A DNA stretch of 64,000 nucleotides, from the NCBI RefSeq assembly GCF_021513255.1, contig NZ_CP090977.1:1550001-1614000 (forward strand), read 5' to 3'. The stretch's first letter is position 1. Each line of letters starts with the position of its first letter. This DNA comes from Planococcus sp. 107-1. Lineage in GTDB: Bacteria > Bacillota > Bacilli > Bacillales_A > Planococcaceae. A program made the translations under genes and the position numbers. Of the stretch, positions 2,098-63,837 are shown one piece after another. The notes below the pieces were generated by a model. That model ran no database searches, was not told the origin of the DNA, and worked only from the letters and a program-made list of their open reading frames with translations.

Positions 2098-2944
2098 TGC
2101 TATATTAACGTATGAATTTCTGCAAAACGCCTTTGCTGCAGGGTTGATTATCGGCGTGATTGCACCGCTTCTAGGCGTGTTTATCGTGGTTCGCCGCCTT
2201 TCGCTTATAGCGGATGCCCTGAGCCATGTAACCTTAGCGGGAATAGCCGGAAGCTTGTTTTTGAGCCAAAGTGTAGCCGCTTTTGCTTTATTGAATCCGT
2301 TATTTCTGGGCATAGCCGCATCTGTCGGCGGATCGATTCTGATCGAACGTCTGAGAAGCCTCTATAAGCATTATGAAGAACTGGCAATTCCGATTATCAT
2401 GTCGGCAGGGATTGGCTTCGGGGCCATCTTCATTTCGCTGGCGCAAGGCTTTTCCAATGATTTATTCGGCTATCTATTCGGTTCCGTTTCGGCCGTCAGC
2501 CGGGAAGACCTGATGATTGTAGCTGGAATTGCGATCGTTGTCTTGGTCTTTATCTTATTATTCTTCAAAGAATTATTCGTATTGTCGTTTGATGATGAGT
2601 ACGCCAAAGCTTCCGGTTTGCCGGCTAAGTGGATACATTTCCTATTTATGATCGTCACAGCGCTTGTTATCGCGGGCTCAATGCGGATTGTCGGGATTTT
2701 ATTGGTGTCATCACTGATGACAATTCCCGTAGCTGCAGCAATGCGGGTAGCGAAAAGCTTCAAGCAGACCATCCTGTTGTCCATCTTTTTTGGTGAATTT
2801 TCTGTCATCACAGGGTTGGTCACCGCATTCTACTTTAATTTAGCGCCGGGAGGCACTATTGTTGTCACTTCAATTTTCTTGTTATTGCTGGTCATTGGCT
2901 TCAAAAAGATCTCTGTTTCAATGAAGAAGGGGGCTGTCGCATGA
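2090..2944 (+). CDS. zurM: Zinc ABC transporter permease
   Basis: Integral membrane permease of the ABC-3 family (ZnuB/AdcB/MntB type), 284 residues from the ATG at 2090. That start has GGAGG at 2074-2078 and overlaps the end of zurA by 8 bp. An ATG 48 bp upstream in frame lacks a good RBS. The protein is almost entirely hydrophobic, with about eight membrane helices. The conserved region RRLSLIADALSHVTLAGIA near residue 40 and PVAAAMRVAKSFK in the C-terminal third are family hallmarks. It forms the channel for the zinc importer with zurA and overlaps zur by 4 bp (ATGA), so translation is coupled. Confidence 0.92.
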   Translation: MIDAILTYEFLQNAFAAGLIIGVIAPLLGVFIVVRRLSLIADALSHVTLAGIAGSLFLSQSVAAFALLNPLFLGIAASVGGSILIERLRSLYKHYEELAIPIIMSAGIGFGAIFISLAQGFSNDLFGYLFGSVSAVSREDLMIVAGIAIVVLVFILLFFKELFVLSFDDEYAKASGLPAKWIHFLFMIVTALVIAGSMRIVGILLVSSLMTIPVAAAMRVAKSFKQTILLSIFFGEFSVITGLVTAFYFNLAPGGTIVVTSIFLLLLVIGFKKISVSMKKGAVA

Positions 2945-3351
2945 ACATCTCAAAAGCGTGGGACATTTTAAAAGAAAACGGCTATAAGGAAACGACAAAA
3001 CGTTCGCAAATCCTTGAGTTATTTGCAGACGATGACCGCTATTTGACGGCTCGTGATTTGCTCGACGTCATGCAAAAAGATTATCCGAGCATGAGCTATG
3101 ATACCGTGTACCGCAACTTGGCGACATTTGTGTCGCTTGGCATTTTGGAAGAGACGGAATTGTCGGGAGAGCGCCATTTCCGGATGCAATGCGAAAGCGA
3201 GCATCATCATCACCACTTTATCTGTTTGGACTGCGGGAAGATCAAAGAAATTCCAGTTTGTCCGATGGATATGCTGGGTGCGGCATTGCCGGCTTATGAA
3301 ATTGCCAACCACAAATTCGAAATTTACGGCAAATGCCCAGAATGCCAATAA
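2941..3351 (+). CDS. zur: Zinc uptake regulator Zur (Fur family)
   Basis: Zinc-responsive repressor of 136 residues with an N-terminal winged helix (MSYDTVYRNLATFVSLGILEE is part of it). The C-terminal metal and dimerisation domain carries an HHHHHFICLDCG motif and ends in CPECQ, so both Cys pairs of the structural zinc site are present. With zinc it should bind the box at 1286-1306 and repress its own operon. Fur and PerR paralogues are similar, but the zinc ABC operon context and the Zur-type operator favour Zur. The gene stops directly against the 123-bp repeat array; its terminator lies beyond the array. Confidence 0.9.
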   Translation: MNISKAWDILKENGYKETTKRSQILELFADDDRYLTARDLLDVMQKDYPSMSYDTVYRNLATFVSLGILEETELSGERHFRMQCESEHHHHHFICLDCGKIKEIPVCPMDMLGAALPAYEIANHKFEIYGKCPECQ

Positions 3352-3720
3352 GAAAAGCGGAAGTGCCTGTCCAGCTTCGAAAGGCATAAGACGGATTGCC
3401 GAAGCGGCGCATCTTGCCGCACAGGCGAGACGGCTTATGACCCGAGAAGCTAGGCACTGGAGTCTGGACAGTAAGAAAAGCGGAAGTGCCTGTTCAGCTT
3501 CGAAAGGCATAAGACGGATTGCCGAAGCGGCGCATCTTGCCGCACAGGCGAGACGGCTTATGACCCGAGAAGCTAGGCACTGGAGTCTGGACAGTAAGAA
3601 AAGCGGAAGTGCCTGTCCAGCTTCGAAAGGCATAAGACGGATTGCCGAAGCGGCGCATCTTGCCGCACAGGCGAGACGGCTTATGACCCGAGAAGCTAGG
3701 CACTGGAGTCTGGACAATAA
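3352..3720 (+). repeat. Three tandem copies of a 123-bp structured repeat (family A)
   Basis: Three units with an exact period of 123 bp start after the zur stop codon (units begin at 3352, 3475 and 3598). They are identical except for one C-to-T change in copy 2 (TGTTCAGC instead of TGTCCAGC) and a linker difference at the end. In copy 1 nested stems are visible: AGTGCC 3362-3367 with GGCACT 3453-3458; AGCTTC 3373-3378 with GAAGCT 3446-3451; CATAAG 3385-3390 with CTTATG 3434-3439; GCGGC 3404-3408 with GCCGC 3416-3420. The array is bounded by the 11-bp direct repeat CAATAAGAAAA (3346-3356 and 3715-3725). The 123-bp period equals 41 codons, which explains long open frames through it on both strands; they are not considered coding. 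Confidence 0.95.
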
Positions 3721-3722
3721 GA

Positions 3723-3756
3723 AAACGCAAGCGGTCTGATGCCGCTTGCGTTTTTT
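3723..3756 (+). terminator. Terminator of the zur operon, beyond the repeat array
   Basis: AACGCAAGCGG and CCGCTTGCGTT form an 11-bp stem followed by a run of T. Without the array it would start a few bases after the zur stop codon. Confidence 0.9.
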
Positions 3757-3776
3757 CATGTATTTATTCACCGAAT

Positions 3777-25729: not shown

Positions 25730-25794
25730 ATAGTCAAAGTTGTACTATTCAGTATAACGTTTTGGACCAATCAAATTGATTTGGGCGGATGATT

Positions 25795-25956
25795 GTACGG
25801 GGAGAGAACGCGAAAGCGTCGCCGAAGGAGCAAACGACAAAATGTCGTGAATCTCTCAGGCAAAAAGACTCGTACGGGACGCATCTCTGGAGAATGCTGC
25901 ATGCAGCTACCAAAGAGGAAAGCCGTAAAGGTAAACTTTCAGGTTCCAGGACAGAG
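25795..25956 (+). promoter_or_regulatory. Tandem glycine riboswitch
   Basis: Two consecutive glycine aptamers precede gcvT. Aptamer 1 is closed by GTACG (25795-25799) with CGTAC (25871-25875) and contains the conserved GGAGAG and CTCTCAGGCAAAAAGAC parts. Aptamer 2 has TCTGGAGA, CCAAAGAGGAAAGCC and AACTTTCAGG and is closed by CTCTG (25885-25889) with CAGAG (25952-25956). Tandem cooperative glycine aptamers upstream of gcvT are well known in Bacillales. Confidence 0.95.
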
Positions 25957-25992
25957 ATTTCCCTTATTAAAGGGGAATCTCTGTCCTTTTTT
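25949..25992 (+). terminator. Riboswitch-controlled terminator
   Basis: GGACAGAGATT (25949-25959) pairs with AATCTCTGTCC (25976-25986), followed by six T. Its 5' arm includes CAGAG (25952-25956), the 3' strand of the aptamer 2 closing stem, so the two structures exclude each other. This predicts an ON switch: glycine stabilises the aptamer and lets transcription continue into gcvT. Confidence 0.9.
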
Positions 25993-26069: not shown

Positions 26070-27179
26070 ATGGCAGAACTTACAAACCAATTACAGCGAA
26101 CACCACTTTTTGAATCTTATGCAAAGCATGGCGGAAAAACCATCGATTTTGGCGGATGGGAACTGCCGGTACAATTCTCAAGCATTAAAGAGGAACATGA
26201 AGCAGTGAGAACAAAGGCCGGACTTTTCGATGTTTCCCATATGGGCGAAATTTTCGTCACAGGCAATGACAGTTTGGCTTATTTGCAGCAGCTCGTTACC
26301 AATGATGTTTCCAAAATCCAAAATGGGCAAGCCCAATATACAGCTATGTGCTATGAAGATGGCGGCACAGTCGACGATTTACTGATATACAAAATAGAGG
26401 ATGCCCATTATTTGTTGGTTGTCAACGCTTCGAATATTGAAAAAGATTTTGAATGGATGCAAAAAACGGTTTTGGGTGACGTGAAATTGGAAAACCATTC
26501 AGCTGATTATGGCTTACTTGCTTTGCAAGGCCCGCTCGCAGAGAAAATCCTTCAACGGCTTACGGAAGAAAATTTAGCTGAAATCAAAGCCTTCCGCTTT
26601 AAAACGGATGTTTCAATCGATGGACATTCTGTCATTGTGTCACGGACAGGCTACACCGGTGAAGACGGTTTTGAAATCTACGGGAACCCGCAAGCTGTAG
26701 TTGCACTTTGGGATGCATTATTGGCTGAAGGTGCAGAAGACGGCCTTGTTCCGTGTGGTCTCGGTGCACGCGATACGCTGCGTTTTGAGGCATGCTTAGC
26801 GCTTTACGGACAAGAGCTTTCCGATGATATTACACCTTTGGAAGCCGGATTGAATTTTGTGGTGAAATTGAACAAAGAAGAGTTTATGGGCAAAGAAGCC
26901 CTGGCTTCACAAAAAGAAAATGGCATACCAAGGAAATCCGTCGGAATCGAAATGATTGATAAAGGAATTCCGCGCCACGGCTATGCGGTTTACTTACATG
27001 ATGAAAAAATCGGCGAAGTCACAACCGGTACGCAATCGCCGAGCTTGAAGAAAAATATTGGTTTAGCCCTGATTTCCAAAGAACATGCGGAGCTTGGAGC
27101 AGAAATTGAAATCGAAATCCGCAACAAGCGCCTGAAAGCGAAAATTGTCGAAACGCCATTTTACAAACGCTCAAAATAA
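26070..27179 (+). CDS. gcvT: Glycine cleavage system T protein (aminomethyltransferase)
   Basis: Transfers the methylene group from the aminomethyl-lipoyl H protein to tetrahydrofolate, releasing ammonia, 369 residues. The FDVSHMGEI segment near residue 52, [14 protein letters not shown] and the C-terminal [10 protein letters not shown] are GcvT hallmarks. It is first gene of the riboswitch-controlled operon. The ATG has AAGGAGG upstream. Confidence 0.96.
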
Positions 27180-58379: not shown

Positions 58380-59384
58380 ATGGCTTCAAAACACGAAGAA
58401 GTAGGTTTGACAACAGAAGATTTATTGAAGATCTATGAAACGATGATGACGGCCCGCCGTGTCGATGAGCGTATGTGGCTCTTGAACCGTGCCGGCAAAA
58501 TCCCATTCGTCATTTCATGCCAAGGCCAAGAGGCGGCTCAAGTCGGAGCGGCTTATGCACTGGATAACACAAAAGATTATATCGCGCCTTATTACCGCGA
58601 TTTAGGGGTTGTTTTGCATTTCGGCATGACGCCTAAAGACATTATGCTTTCTGCTTTTGCGAAAGCGGAAGATCCGAACTCCGGCGGACGCCAAATGCCA
58701 GGGCATTTTGGACAGAAGAAAAACCGCATTTTGACTGGATCTTCACCTGTAACGACGCAATTGCCGCATGCAGTAGGCGTAGCGCTTGCCGGGAAAATGA
58801 AGAAACAGGATTTCATTACATTTAATACGCTTGGTGAAGGCTCTTCCAACCAAGGTGATTTCCATGAAGGCCTAAACTTTGCCGGCGTCCATAAATTGCC
58901 GGTCATCACAATGGTTGAAAACAATAAATACGCCATTTCTGTTCCATTTGATCGCCAAGTGGCGAGCAAAAACGTTTCGGACCGTGCGGCAAGCTATGGC
59001 ATGCCAGGCGTTACGATTGATGGAAATGACCCAATTGAAGTTTACAAACATGTTAAAGAAGCAGCTGACCGCGCCCGCCGCGGCGAAGGCCCAAGCTTGA
59101 TTGAAACTGTTTCTGAACGGATGACGGCCCATTCGTCGGATGATGATCACCGTCAATACCGCTCAGCTGACGAATTGGCTGCGCAAAAAGAGAAAGATCC
59201 GATTCTGACTTTCGGTGCTTATTTGAAAGAAAATGGCATCATGAATGACGAATTAGAGAAAGAAATCAACGACCGCATCATGGTGATTGTCAATGAAGCG
59301 ACAGATTATGCTGAAAACGCGCCATACGCAGAACCGGAACATGCGCTTAAATATGTCTATGCGGAAAAAGGAGGAAACGAATAA
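58380..59384 (+). CDS. bkdAA: Branched-chain 2-oxoacid dehydrogenase E1 alpha
   Basis: Thiamine diphosphate E1 alpha subunit, 334 residues. The TPP/Mg segment reads GEGSSNQGDFHEGLNFA followed by ENNKYAISVP; phosphorylation-loop type SYGMPGVTIDGND and MTAHSSDDDHRQYR are seen. In the TPP motif the first Asp of GDG is Glu (GEG), a form seen in this subfamily. ATG at 58380 follows AAAGGAGG. It overlaps bkdAB by one base. Confidence 0.94.
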   Translation: MASKHEEVGLTTEDLLKIYETMMTARRVDERMWLLNRAGKIPFVISCQGQEAAQVGAAYALDNTKDYIAPYYRDLGVVLHFGMTPKDIMLSAFAKAEDPNSGGRQMPGHFGQKKNRILTGSSPVTTQLPHAVGVALAGKMKKQDFITFNTLGEGSSNQGDFHEGLNFAGVHKLPVITMVENNKYAISVPFDRQVASKNVSDRAASYGMPGVTIDGNDPIEVYKHVKEAADRARRGEGPSLIETVSERMTAHSSDDDHRQYRSADELAAQKEKDPILTFGAYLKENGIMNDELEKEINDRIMVIVNEATDYAENAPYAEPEHALKYVYAEKGGNE

Positions 59385-60366
59385 TGGCAGTAATGAATTA
59401 TATTGACGCCATCACGCTTGCCATGAAAGAAGAAATGGAACGTGACGAAAACGTTTTTGTCCTGGGTGAAGATGTGGGTAAAAAAGGCGGCGTATTTAAA
59501 GCGACGCAAGGACTTTACGATCAATTCGGAGAAGACCGCGTTGTCGACACGCCGCTGGCTGAATCGGCAATTGCCGGTGTCGGGATCGGAGCAGCTATGT
59601 ATGGCATGCGTCCAATCGCAGAATTCCAATTTGCTGATTTCATCATGCCTGCAGTCAACCAGATCATTTCGGAAGCTTCGCGCATCCGTTACCGTTCGAA
59701 CAACGACTGGTCATGCCCGATCGTTTTCCGTGCACCATTTGGCGGCGGCGTTCACGGTGCTCTTTACCATTCTCAATCTGTAGAAGCGGTATTTGCGAAC
59801 CAGCCAGGATTGAAAATTGTCATTCCTTCAACTCCTTACGATGCAAAAGGATTATTGAAAGCGGCTATCCGCGATGAAGATCCGGTCATGTTCTTTGAAC
59901 ATAAACGCGCTTACCGTTTGATCAAAGGTGAAGTTCCAGAAGACGACTATACTGTTGAAATTGGAAAAGCCGATGTAAAACGAGAAGGCGACGACATTAC
60001 AGTCATCACTTACGGATTGGCTGTCCATTTCGCGCTGCAAGCTGCTGAACGTTTGGCAGAAGACGGCATTTCTGCACACGTTCTTGATCTTCGGACAATT
60101 TATCCATTGGATAAAGAAGGCATCATTGAAGCTGTGAAGAAAACAGGGAAAGTATTGCTTGTCACAGAAGACAATAAAGAAGGAAGCATTATCGGAGAAG
60201 TGGCGGCAATCATCGCTGAAAACTGCCTATTCGACCTTGATGCGCCAATCAAACGCCTGGCGGTCCTGATGTTCCGGCAATGGCTTATGCTCCAACTATG
60301 GAAAAATATTTCATGATCAACCCGGATAAAGTGGAAAAAGCGATGCGGGAACTAGCGGAATTTTAA
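59384..60366 (+). CDS. bkdAB: Branched-chain 2-oxoacid dehydrogenase E1 beta, frameshifted
   Basis: E1 beta subunit, 327 residues when corrected. GEDVGKKGGVFKATQGLYDQFG, RAPFGGGVHGALYHSQS and ITYGLAVHFALQAAE are conserved. Near the end the frame drifts from KRLAV to an early stop at 60316; adding one G at GCGGTCC (60258-60264) gives KRLAGPDVPAMAYAPTMEKYF and a stop at 60364-60366. The 123-bp repeat array follows directly. Confidence 0.93.
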
Positions 60367-60620
60367 AAAAGGAAAGCGCAAGCGCCCGTGTAGATTCGAC
60401 GGGCATAAGACAGGCTGGCGAAGCGGCATTTTTTCAGCCGCACAGCTGGACTGGCTTATGACACTAGAATCTGGGCGCTGGAGTCTGGACAAAGGAAAGC
60501 GCAAGCGCCCGTGTAGATTCGACGGGCATAAGACAGGCTGGCGAAGCGGCATTTTTTCAGCCGCACAGCTGGACTGGCTTATGACACTAGAATCTGGGCG
60601 CTGGAGTCTGGACAAAGAAA
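60367..60620 (+). repeat. Two tandem copies of a 123-bp structured repeat (family B)
   Basis: Two units (60371-60493 and 60494-60616) are identical over their length, with period 123 bp, the same as the array at 3352. The sequence differs from family A, yet the stems are at matching places: AGCGCC 60381-60386 with GGCGCT 60474-60479; AGATTC 60392-60397 with GAATCT 60467-60472; CATAAG 60404-60409 with CTTATG 60455-60460; GCGGC 60423-60427 with GCCGC 60437-60441. Both families end in GGAGTCTGGACA. The array begins right after the bkdAB stop codon and fills most of the gap before bkdB; the rest (60621-60655) holds only the bkdB RBS. Confidence 0.95.
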
Positions 60621-60655
60621 AGTAAAAGATGCACTCAATAAAGGAGGAATCCCTT

Positions 60656-61999
60656 TTGGCTATAGAAAACATTAAAATGCCGCAGCTTGGCGAAAGTGTG
60701 ACTGAAGGAACCATTGAAAAATGGTTGGTTCAGCCAGGAGACCACGTCAATAAATACGATCCTTTGGCTGAGGTCAATACGGATAAGGTAACGGCTGAAG
60801 TACCTTCTTCATTCACTGGAATCATTAAAGAATTGATCGCTAATGAAGGCGACACGCTGGATGTCGGAGCGATTGTCTGTACAATCGAAACTGAAGGCGG
60901 AGGTTCTGAACCTGCTGAAGAAGCAAAACCGGCTGAAACCGGAAAAGAAAATGTTATGCCTGCTGCAGATACGGAAGTGACAAAAGGCTTGCAAGGAACG
61001 AAAGGTTCATCCCAGCCGGTACGTCCGGAAGGCTCAAAAGCCCGCTTACTCGCCTGCAGTTCTGCGTTTGGCCCAAGATAATGATATCGACTTGGCACAA
61101 GTGCAGGGAACTGGAAACGAAGGGCGCATTACGCGCAAAGATTTGCTGGCATTAATCGAAGGCGGCAATATTCCAAAAGCCGGAGATGTACAAGCAGCTC
61201 CTGCGAAAGAAGAAAGCCGGCCAGCTGCAAGTGACTCTGCGCCAGCTCAAACGTCATCTGCGCCAGCACAAAAATCTGCACCGATCGAAAGTGCGCCTGG
61301 CGACATTGAAATTCCTGTCACGGGTGTTCGCCGCGCGATTGCAGCCAATATGCTGAAGAGCAAACACGAAGCGCCGCATGCGTGGATGATGATCGAAGTC
61401 GATGTGACGGAATTGGTTTCTTACCGTGATTCCCTGAAAACGGAATTCAAAAGCAAAGAAGGCTTCAACCTCACATATTTCGCATTTTTCGTCAAAGCGG
61501 TTTCTCAGGCATTGAAAGAATTTCCAATGATGAACTCAATGTGGGCGGAGATAAAATCATCCAGAAGAAAGACATCAATATTTCAATTGCTGTCGCTTCT
61601 GACAATGCGTTATTTGTCCCGGTCATCAAAAACTCGGATGAAAAATCAATTAAAGGCATCGGCAAGGAAATCAATGAATTGGCTGTTAAAGCCCGTTCCG
61701 GCAAATTGAAATCAGCTGATATGCAAGGCGGAACATTTACTGTGAACAGCACAGGATCGTTTGGTTCAGTGCAATCCATGGGCATCATCAACCATCCGCA
61801 AGCGGCGATTCTGCAAGTCGAGTCAATCGTTAAACGTCCAGTCATCATGGACAATGGTATGATTGCGGCGCGCGATATGGTCAATTTATGTTTGTCTCTT
61901 GACCACCGTGTATTGGATGGACTCATTTGCGGCCAATTCATGGGACGCGTGAAAGAAATTCTTGAAAATATGAACAAAGGCAATACTTCTGTTTATTAA
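60656..61999 (+). CDS. bkdB: Branched-chain 2-oxoacid dehydrogenase E2 (lipoamide acyltransferase), two frameshifts
   Basis: Core acyltransferase of the BCKDH complex, about 447 residues when corrected. The lipoyl domain has the lipoyl lysine in EVNTDKVTAEVPS, the E1/E3-binding domain reads RLAQDNDIDLAQVQGTGNEGRITRKD (in part NDIDLAQVQGTGNEGRITRK), and the catalytic domain ends in LSLDHRVLDG with the active His. The first break is in SKARLLACS, where one extra C in GCCCGC (61040-61046) restores SKAAYSPAVLRLA. The second is in MWAEIKSS, where one missing G in GCGGAG (61546-61551) restores MWAGDKIIQKKD. TTG start with AAGGAGG 9 bp upstream. Confidence 0.92.
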
Positions 62000-62137: not shown

Positions 62138-63837
62138 GTGACAATCGAGTCCATGAAACAGACCAAATTTTCGGAGCGTACATATGAAGAATGGCAAGCT
62201 GCCGCTGAAAAAGCGTTGAAAGGCAAACCGTTCAATGAAACTTTAAAAACCAAAACTCTTGAAGGGATAACCCTTGAACCTCTTTACACGAAAGAAATGC
62301 TGGGGCAATCCGGTGAAATGATTGAACAGCAGATCCAAGCTGTCCGCAGTGGAAAGCAATTGCCTGGGTGGTTTATCGCACAGGAAACAGCAGCGGCGAC
62401 TGCAACGGATTATTTAACGGCTGTCAAAGAGGACTTGGCGCGCGGCAATGAAATGATTGTCTACACAAGCTATCAGCGCTTGGAATGGAATGACAGCGAG
62501 CTGAAGGAATTGGCATCGCTGATTGAGCGTTTCCCATTATACTTCCGCCTAACGTCAGATGACACGCAAATTCTGCGGGTTTTCGATTTTATGGAAGAGG
62601 AAAAGCTGACGAATGTACAAGGTGTGATTTATTCGGAAGAATTTGTGAAAGCGCCTGCAAAAGTACGCACCCAGCTAATTGATACGATACCGGTACATCA
62701 TGCAGGAGGCACCATCATCCACGAACTTGGCGTGGCACTCAGCATTTTAGCGGAGACGGTCACTAAGGAGGATTTCCAGAAACAGGCTGAAAACACGTGG
62801 GTGCGTTTTGCAGTCGATACGGCATTTTTCCAGGAAATTGCGAAATTGCGCGCTTTTCGCGTACTTTGGACGGCATTCTGTTCAGCTTATGGGGAAGAAG
62901 CTCCTCCAATTCCGATTTTTACCGAAACATCGGTCCGTTCTTATTCAAAATTGGACCCATACGTAAACTTGCTTCGCGCAGGCAATGCCACTTTTTCGGC
63001 AGTCCTTGGCGGAACGAATGCGCATACTGTCCATCCACATGACTTCTTGACCGTTTCGGACGCACAAAGCCGCCGGATTGCACGCAATGTCCAGTTGGTT
63101 ATTAAAGAAGAGACGCATGTCAACCATGTCATGGATGCGAGCGCAGGATCTTACTTCATTGAAACATTGACGAATGAATATGTTGATGCAGCGTGGCGCT
63201 ATTTCTTGGAGATTGAAGGTGCGGGCGGCTATTCAGAAGCGATGAATTCCGGCTGGCTGACCGATGATATTCAAGCGAAATGGATGGAGCGCAAGGAAAA
63301 AGCGGCAGTCCGGGAGATGTCGCTGATCGGTACGAATGTTTATGCGAACCCACAAGAGCCGGTGAAAGATGGGCAAATTGATGAGACGCATCTCGAATAT
63401 ATGACAGCTAAGCGTTTGGCTGCACCGTTTGAGAAATTGCGGGCGCGCAGCAAAGAAGTGATGCTGAAGACAGCGATTGTCCATCTTGGCCCATTAAAAG
63501 CCGTGAAAGCACAGTCTGATTTTGTCCAAGGATTTTTAGCCGTTGGCGGAATCGAGCCGATGATCAGCCCTGAAATCCAGACGGCGCAAGAATTAAATCA
63601 GTTCCTTGCAGAAAATCATATCCAGTATGCAGTATTATGCGGCGGAAAGAAAAAATTGATGAAGTTGCCATTGGTATGACTACGGATGCAGTAATTGACG
63701 TGGCAGGCAAGTATCCGGAACAGCAGATGGCTGAGTGGAAAGTTTTCCATATCGAAGATGCCATCTACACCGGCAAACACATTACTTCGAAGCTCGAGCA
63801 AATTTTGAAGTTAGGAAAGGAGGCTGTTCAAGAATGA
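62138..63837 (+). CDS. mutA: Methylmalonyl-CoA mutase small subunit, frameshifted
   Basis: Non-catalytic beta subunit of the heterodimeric B12-dependent mutase, about 566 residues when corrected. The barrel has RHAGG-like VHHAGGTIIHELGVALSI and NHVMDASAGSYFIETLT. The first frame ends in CGGKKKLMKLPLV; the continuation GKEKIDEVAIGMTTDAVIDV is in the next frame, and one extra A in GGAAAG (63645-63650) joins them. GTG start after GAGGAGGG. It overlaps mutB by 4 bp. Confidence 0.9.

Follow-up and report, generated by a model that had tools for sequence, protein, structure and literature searches.

Two places in a 64,000-nt stretch of Planococcus sp. 107-1 (the window; positions 1550001-1614000 of contig C1 of the 3.51 Mb genome G000) carry tandem repeats with a 123-bp period, originally described as families A and B of a nested-stem repeat under selection for its folded form. 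Both tandem repeats were recovered by Tandem Repeats Finder, array A at 3349-3725 (period 123, 3.1 copies, 98% matches) and array B at 60368-60622 (period 123, 2.1 copies, 99% matches), and again by a covariance model. Units A1 (119 nt) and B1 (121 nt) are identical at 94 aligned positions, and A and B are therefore two members of one family. Array A covers 3352-3716 with three 119-nt units and 4-nt linkers, and array B covers 60371-60614 with two 121-nt units and a 2-nt linker. The features of both sites are summarized in Table 1.

Table 1. Features at arrays A and B, in window positions
Feature	Position	Strand	Description
Presumed Fur/PerR-type regulator gene upstream of array A	2941..3351	+	Stop codon TAA 3349-3351 abuts the first unit
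Unit A1	3352..3470	+	Head GAAAAGCGG, nested stems, tail GGAGTCTGGACA; from sequence, fold and covariance model
Unit A2	3475..3593	+	From sequence and covariance model
Unit A3	3598..3716	+	From sequence and covariance model
Terminator-like hairpin with T-run	3721..3756	+	Directly right of array A; 5' arm starts GAAAA
Unit B1	60371..60491	+	Follows TAA 60364-60366, counterpart of the P. ruber stop
Unit B2	60494..60614	+	Followed by AAGAAAAG and the likely ribosome-binding site of the next gene

The gene upstream of array A, which we take from its sequence to encode a Fur/PerR-type regulator (perR-like), has an orthologue in 46/46 genomes of the genus. The hairpin on the right of the array was detected on both strands and is also present at the site in Planococcus ruber (G119), the nearest named neighbour seen; it is presumably the terminator of the upstream gene. 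At site B our own detector found no terminator-like hairpin within 160 nt of the array. The open reading frame of the region before array B (window 59384-60366) ends at 60316, the P. ruber stop corresponding instead to the TAA named in Table 1, and three ORFs, 60629-61081, 61068-61709 and 61541-61999, share the gene after the array (60629-61999); frameshifts or errors in the sequence are a likely cause. Positions 62138-63679 of the window, used as query against the genome contigs, matched a single locus.

The unit is bounded by constant ends, the head GAAAAGCGNAA on the 5' side and the tail GGAGTCTGGACA on the 3' side, with only about 10-12 nt fixed. The nested stems occupy alignment columns 11-17/104-110 (outer), 22-27/98-103 (second), 32-48/76-94 (inner) and 53-57/67-71 (tip), and the unpaired letters of head and loops are invariant. 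All stems originally listed for A and B are found in the sequence and agree with the minimum-energy folds of the + strand (A -52.7 kcal/mol, z -5.0; B -48.4 kcal/mol, z -3.0); the minus strands of both also fold beyond most shuffles (z -2.8 each). The CATAAG stem and the GCGGC tip had been described as unchanged, which is correct between A and B with their CATAAG...CTTATG interior and GAAGCGGC/GCCGCACAG tip, but not for other copies, which include a CTTAAG type and other tips. A second interior type reads GCGCTGGAAG...CTGAAGCGAC with an AATGGCG/CGCCATT-like tip (P. ruber C8:247371, C8:34572), and copy 539225 has a third kind of tip, GAGGAAATCC. Mini-units composed of head, short hairpin and tail occur at 3402824, 997989, 2969399 and near 393 kb. 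At 1266 kb strain 107-1 has a mini-unit where P. ruber has a full unit of the second type, which in our reading suggests an internal deletion.

A DNA search of the genome with unit A1 gave 60 matches, and the covariance model R1, made from 44 copies, gave at least 105 in the 3.5 Mb genome (150 of 1630 candidates scored). These were grouped, for 104 matches, into 62 arrays, 30 with a single unit, 22 with two and ten with three; the arrays analysed below number 61, one antisense row of the 105 having been dropped and array 997989 lacking a locus. Modelled on the interior type found in the window, R1 overlooks units whose interiors differ, among them 182261 in P. ruber and the mini-unit near 393 kb in strain 107-1. 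With stricter filters and only 36, 13 and 12 candidates scored per genome, searches at the level of family, order and class found matches in 60/101, 190/261 and 39/299 genomes, respectively. The 261 genomes of the order search all belong to one family, the Planococcaceae, and the 190 with matches include 46/46 genomes of the genus; the 39 of the class comprise 20 of the own family and, in line with the original statement on other Bacillales, 19 from nine other families, three of these with one match each.

Unit-to-unit spacing is 116-126 nt in 39/42 cases and exactly 123 in 10/42, so that the common period holds for A and B and fails family-wide. The spacings vary over the genome and therefore no reading frame is common to all copies; a coding repeat was rejected, although 123 is divisible by 3 and ORFs cross array A. 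Longer arrays were seen in two other members of the genus, seven units at steps of about 123 nt (G079:C2:59039-59895) and five units with identical scores that follow one another every 124 nt (G102:C1:2640916-2641530). Plasmid and phage collections delivered no match to unit A1, the only query, at E 1e-5, and carriage by plasmid or phage was rejected. Rfam at gathering score returned for the whole window two glycine riboswitch matches only, which are adjacent aptamers at 25789-25958 on the + strand (RF00504, 70.7 and 40.9 bits) with an ORF at 26070 downstream. For region 3300-3760, with E up to 5, six Rfam matches were returned, all far below their gathering scores; a known RNA family was rejected, as the array regions have no Rfam match at gathering score. 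A published description of this repeat family was not found in a literature search whose coverage of subscription papers was poor, which is no proof of absence.

The alignment used for covariation was reduced from the 60 matches of unit A1 to 53, then to 47 by dropping six partial or odd copies, and to 44 by leaving out the second copies 3598-3716 and 60494-60614 and copy 2830654. Standard pairs fill 97.3% of its 1402 pair cells (shuffled 85.5%, slid 25.2-43.1%); pair-breaking as frequent as pair-keeping was looked for and not found. Both sides have changed in 22/32 pairs (shuffled 13.3, 0/500 as high), the rows being related so that shuffles are not probabilities, a relatedness which the slid control retains. 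Doubly changed cells number 182 against 50.8 in shuffles, the covariation score is 0.428 against 0.201 shuffled and 0.048-0.096 slid, and further pair types number 46 against 41.9 (13/500 as high). The outer two stems alone pair in 97.7% of cells with a score of 0.604 against 0.270, two of the five measures lying inside the shuffles (11 both-side pairs, 30/500 as high; 21 pair types, 383/500). Pairing is thus conserved far beyond the five copies from which selection on the fold was first proposed; as an account of the repeat this is incomplete, the copies behaving as a mobile element. Strong covariation without a matching Rfam entry brings a risk of annotation as an RNA gene.

Palindromes undergo templated correction from one arm to the other. 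If this happened here at replication, the paired substitutions would be mutational and the fold unselected, with stem letters otherwise free, as they are. Such correction does not account for the surplus of G.U over A.C pairs, which stand at 68:11 over all pair cells and at 36:11 minus the two richest pairs (42-82, 46-78), and it leaves the invariant unpaired letters of head and loops unexplained; we consider it highly improbable. Because a paired substitution alone can also be explained by templated correction, the argument for selection on the fold of one strand is the asymmetry of G.U over A.C.

The fold of one strand is kept. Its + strand is the more stable in 86/93 units with RNA parameters and in 92/93 with DNA parameters. 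A split of the asymmetry by surroundings, covering 46 units including two duplicates of alignment rows, gave G.U:A.C of 50:8 in 34 units from arrays at most 60 nt behind a co-oriented gene, 20:2 in 11 units from arrays with an antisense upstream gene, and 1:1 in the one remaining unit. As copies lying antisense show the same direction, the preference seems to come from the element's own propagation rather than from transcription of the host site, although these copies may be too young to have changed.

With genes called by a simple script, 34/61 arrays start at -1 to +6 nt relative to the stop codon of an upstream gene in the same orientation. The upstream gene is co-oriented at any distance in 39/61 arrays and antisense in 22/61; 34 of these 39 near the stop compare with 3.2 expected under uniform starts in the remaining gap, a count that never exceeded 11 in 20000 simulations, and a convergent stop is found within 6 nt of the right end in 1/40. 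Truncation of its upstream ORF keeps site B out of the 34, although B1 lies 4 nt past the TAA equivalent to the P. ruber stop. Terminator-like hairpins within 160 nt were detected on the tail side of 44/61 arrays and on the head side of 10/61. The head side of sense arrays is coding, so that the fairer contrast is that of the antisense arrays, with 15/22 on the tail side and 2/22 on the head side. At 17/61 arrays the detector, a crude one, found no tail-side hairpin within 160 nt; like the gene caller it is a simple script of our own, without benchmarking. The site 2682311 is unit-free in P. ruber and is a place with no terminator-like hairpin, so terminators are not the sole targets.

Arrays occupy the 3' untranslated regions of many genes, and a host-kept cis-acting 3'-UTR element, a folded unit between stop and terminator that protects or processes the mRNA, would account for the 34/61 arrays right behind a co-oriented stop and for the conserved + strand fold. 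The accessible part of a report on Bacillus cereus mentions longer half-lives of bcr3-bearing transcripts, which its authors find hard to attribute to the repeat itself (PMC3446304). Against this explanation stand the 22/61 arrays with an antisense upstream gene, which have the same strand asymmetry, and the distribution of units among related genomes.

Flanks of the perR-like gene were covered for 30 of the 46 genomes of the genus. Units occur behind the gene at only 7/30 loci, oriented like the gene and starting 0-4 nt past its stop codon, a patchiness that speaks against a host-kept element. Among 24 of the 30 sites read, five have units and 19 show by eye an inverted repeat soon after the stop, which at unit-free sites is often AAGCGAGAGTGG...CCACTCTCGCTTTT. 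On the tree of the 30 rows occupancy requires 6 changes, at least 5 of them forced by supported branches, and clusters like shuffled labels (192/500 as low), which fits fast turnover and gives no direction. The perR-like site of P. ruber has the same stop, head and terminator, with units that are only 66% alike.

In the P. ruber genome 73 matches were obtained, 70 after dropping three antisense rows, which form 48 arrays. A site is shared with an array of strain 107-1 by 39 of the 48; two face a mini-unit that R1 overlooked or that was outside the set of arrays (3402824, near 393 kb), two a head only (C8:34572, C1:182983) and four a unit-free site (C8:171888, C8:247371, C1:190034, C1:1161528), with no assignment for P. 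ruber array C12:9952 and for arrays 804576, 812198, 960845 and 997989 of strain 107-1. Full-length units are present in both genomes at 33/39 shared sites. The best unit identity is 0.847-0.974 at 22/33, read as inherited, and 0.645-0.765 at 11/33, near the random-locus median of 0.686 and thus that of unrelated members. Sites with unrelated occupants in the two genomes mean that sites persist while occupants change. The different occupants at 11/33 comparable sites also speak against a host-kept 3'-UTR element, to which we assign a low probability. Sites that two related species both keep while the occupants are exchanged would offer a directly testable natural experiment on the entry and turnover of repeats.

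Conversely, 23 arrays of strain 107-1 have no shared P. ruber array, and 19 of their sites are readable there: by our reading, one has units of another type, nine a partial unit, head or tail, and nine no clear trace, although 2702793 and 354411 among these have a stretch resembling GAAAAGC. The pair at 2695494 is the clearest: P. ruber has the stop, GAAAA and the terminator without a unit, reading TAAGAAAA with the terminator immediately behind, whereas three units and one partial unit lie between the same stop and terminator in strain 107-1. Flanks in P. ruber are mostly 85-95% identical, so that gains and losses are indistinguishable at most sites.

Pairs of units from the same array fall into two groups, 11/44 with an identity of 0.95-1.00 and 33/44 with 0.54-0.85, which points to both tandem duplication and stacking of unrelated units. 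Tandem expansion as the sole process was rejected, 33/44 pairs being at most 85% alike. Between loci the best unit identity is 96%, so no insertion is fresh. Many arrays terminate in a 5'-partial unit. For 42 arrays with both heads recognisable, the letters of the first-unit head and the trailing head agree at 25/42 sites against 13.7 when shuffled, but only at 8/19 where the first head differs from the common GCGG. At 1617 kb in P. ruber three units of different kinds and a partial share the rarer head GAAAAGCGTA. Shared head letters fit either target duplication or repeated insertion on the head side, the two being inseparable here; no target-site duplication of constant length was found in filled/empty site pairs. 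At 804500-804800 (L035) a unit is nested in another; in contrast to most arrays, the inner tail is not followed by a GAAAAGC head. The unit at 2055906 appears by eye to be a mosaic, its left arm fitting its own right arm badly while the trailing partial fits the right arm.

Exchange between dispersed units by ordinary homologous recombination or by gene conversion, with unequal crossing over in arrays and without dedicated transposition, would produce the nearly identical pairs (11/44), the mosaic, the exchange of occupants inside kept sites and the head letters common to a site. It leaves unexplained the first occupation of unit-free sites and the orientation towards terminators, and the fixed ends are short; we hold it to be improbable.

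Two classes of enzyme were considered as mobilisers. The Y1 transposase (PF01797) matches 63/101 genomes of the family and has one match in strain 107-1 (C1:2570168), about 34 kb from the nearest R1 match. No Y1 match was obtained in three genomes of the same genus, G007 (8 units), G044 and G058 (at least 36 units each), or in four genomes of another genus with units (G003, G022, G040, G056). On this account Y1/RAYT was rejected as a mobiliser on which upkeep of the family depends. Reverse transcriptase (PF00078) matches 11/46 genomes of the genus, all 46 of which carry units, and was rejected in the same role, 35/46 genomes including strain 107-1 bearing units without it. Neither enzyme is needed to keep the family; either may still have moved it and been lost after the spread. 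The tail pattern has 70 matches, 10 of them outside the model matches. Eight of these ten were read and no larger autonomous partner with this tail was found among them: they are two mini-units, one half of a nested unit, one remnant beside an array and four coding-like stretches.

Taken together, the repeats of arrays A and B are probably a non-autonomous mobile palindromic element, a short interspersed repeat similar to REP, BOX or MITE, which spreads folded and enters at terminators. Mobility is read from patchy presence, filled and empty sites, occupant exchange, and differing or missing interiors. The family is a real, abundant and fold-conserved repeat, a variant of the short interspersed palindromic repeats, and its behaviour is notable for being terminator-side, one-strand, site-keeping and occupant-swapping. 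Beyond the observed copies, covariation, strand asymmetry, placement, orientation, site sharing and occupant exchange, we infer a single-stranded intermediate, targeting and an enzyme acting in trans. Folded single strands of + sense, either RNA or single-stranded DNA, would carry the spread, and the unit would enter mostly at the A-rich foot of an intrinsic terminator with its tail facing the terminator, which would often put it directly behind a stop codon. Stem letters are free if paired, and the interior module is exchangeable. An occupied site would stay a site of landing or exchange, where unrelated units stack and units duplicate in tandem, and recombination would delete units, leaving partial heads. 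If true, a repeat that is abundant in the Planococcaceae is directed to terminators and kept by its fold, and this in genomes able to lack both suspected enzyme classes.

A cassette-like system might explain the same observations: terminator feet would be lasting attachment sites, head and tail recombination sites, and the + strand folds cassettes swapped by an enzyme that is neither Y1 nor reverse transcriptase, with sites inherited and occupants exchanged. We regard this as unlikely.

The mobile element favoured here shares single features with several known systems. Group IIC introns also target the foot of intrinsic terminators. On their own strand they are found 3' of the hairpin, and they encode a reverse transcriptase, whereas the Planococcus units lie 5' of the hairpin and PF00078 is unmatched in the genome of strain 107-1. 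No Rfam match to group II intron RNA was obtained in the window at gathering score or around array A with E up to 5. REP elements move as single strands. In the accessible part of their description, REP elements paired with RAYT carry a tag beside a palindrome, have many copies and are thought to be mobile, CGTC REPs being said to lack a dedicated transposase (PMC3733652). The Planococcus unit differs in its length of about 119 nt, its several nested stems and its ends GAAAAGCG and GGAGTCTGGACA without a GTAG/CGTC tag, and the lone Y1 gene is not flanked by the repeat, in contrast to a REP/RAYT arrangement.

By anatomy the family resembles the BOX elements of Streptococcus, which, as far as the available text describes them, have constant ends boxA and boxC, inner modules and a high degree of folding, and are found with RUP and SPRITE inserted into each other; mobilisation through similarity of the ends to ISSpn2 has been proposed (PMC3049150). 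This comparison is by description. In BOX it is the inner module that is repeated, within a single pair of ends; in the Planococcus family entire units stack, each with ends of its own. The bcr1-bcr18 repeats of the Bacillus cereus group come nearest in host and size and are likewise compared by description: the accessible portions of two articles report them as mostly chromosomal and intergenic, 100-400 bp long, with tens of copies of bcr1, some MITE-like and often in UTRs (PMC6542083, PMC3446304). One of the two (PMC6542083) states that they are confined to the B. cereus group and connects them with a TTTAT motif, unlike the Planococcus family with its GAAAAGCG head and GGAGTCTGGACA tail, which occurs in Planococcaceae and other Bacilli. 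Bhal-1 and Bhal-2 of Bacillus halodurans, repeated stem-loop families of 74-76 bp known to us from a partial description (PMC2267715), could be relatives.

Head and tail variants seem to be linked in other genera (L055, L059, L061, L062, L068, L070, L074): a TAAAAGC head occurs with a tail ending in GGATA, and CAAAAG with an ending TGA or CGA, against GAAAAGC with GGACA. Such linkage could reflect recognition of the ends specific to subfamilies. A larger interior, CATCTCTTTGCGACGAAGC...GATGCAGGAGCAA, recurs in units of several genomes (L120 1913-2106; P. ruber about C8:31.7 kb, L136; the site facing 182261, L197) and is perhaps another small repeat that targets the units.
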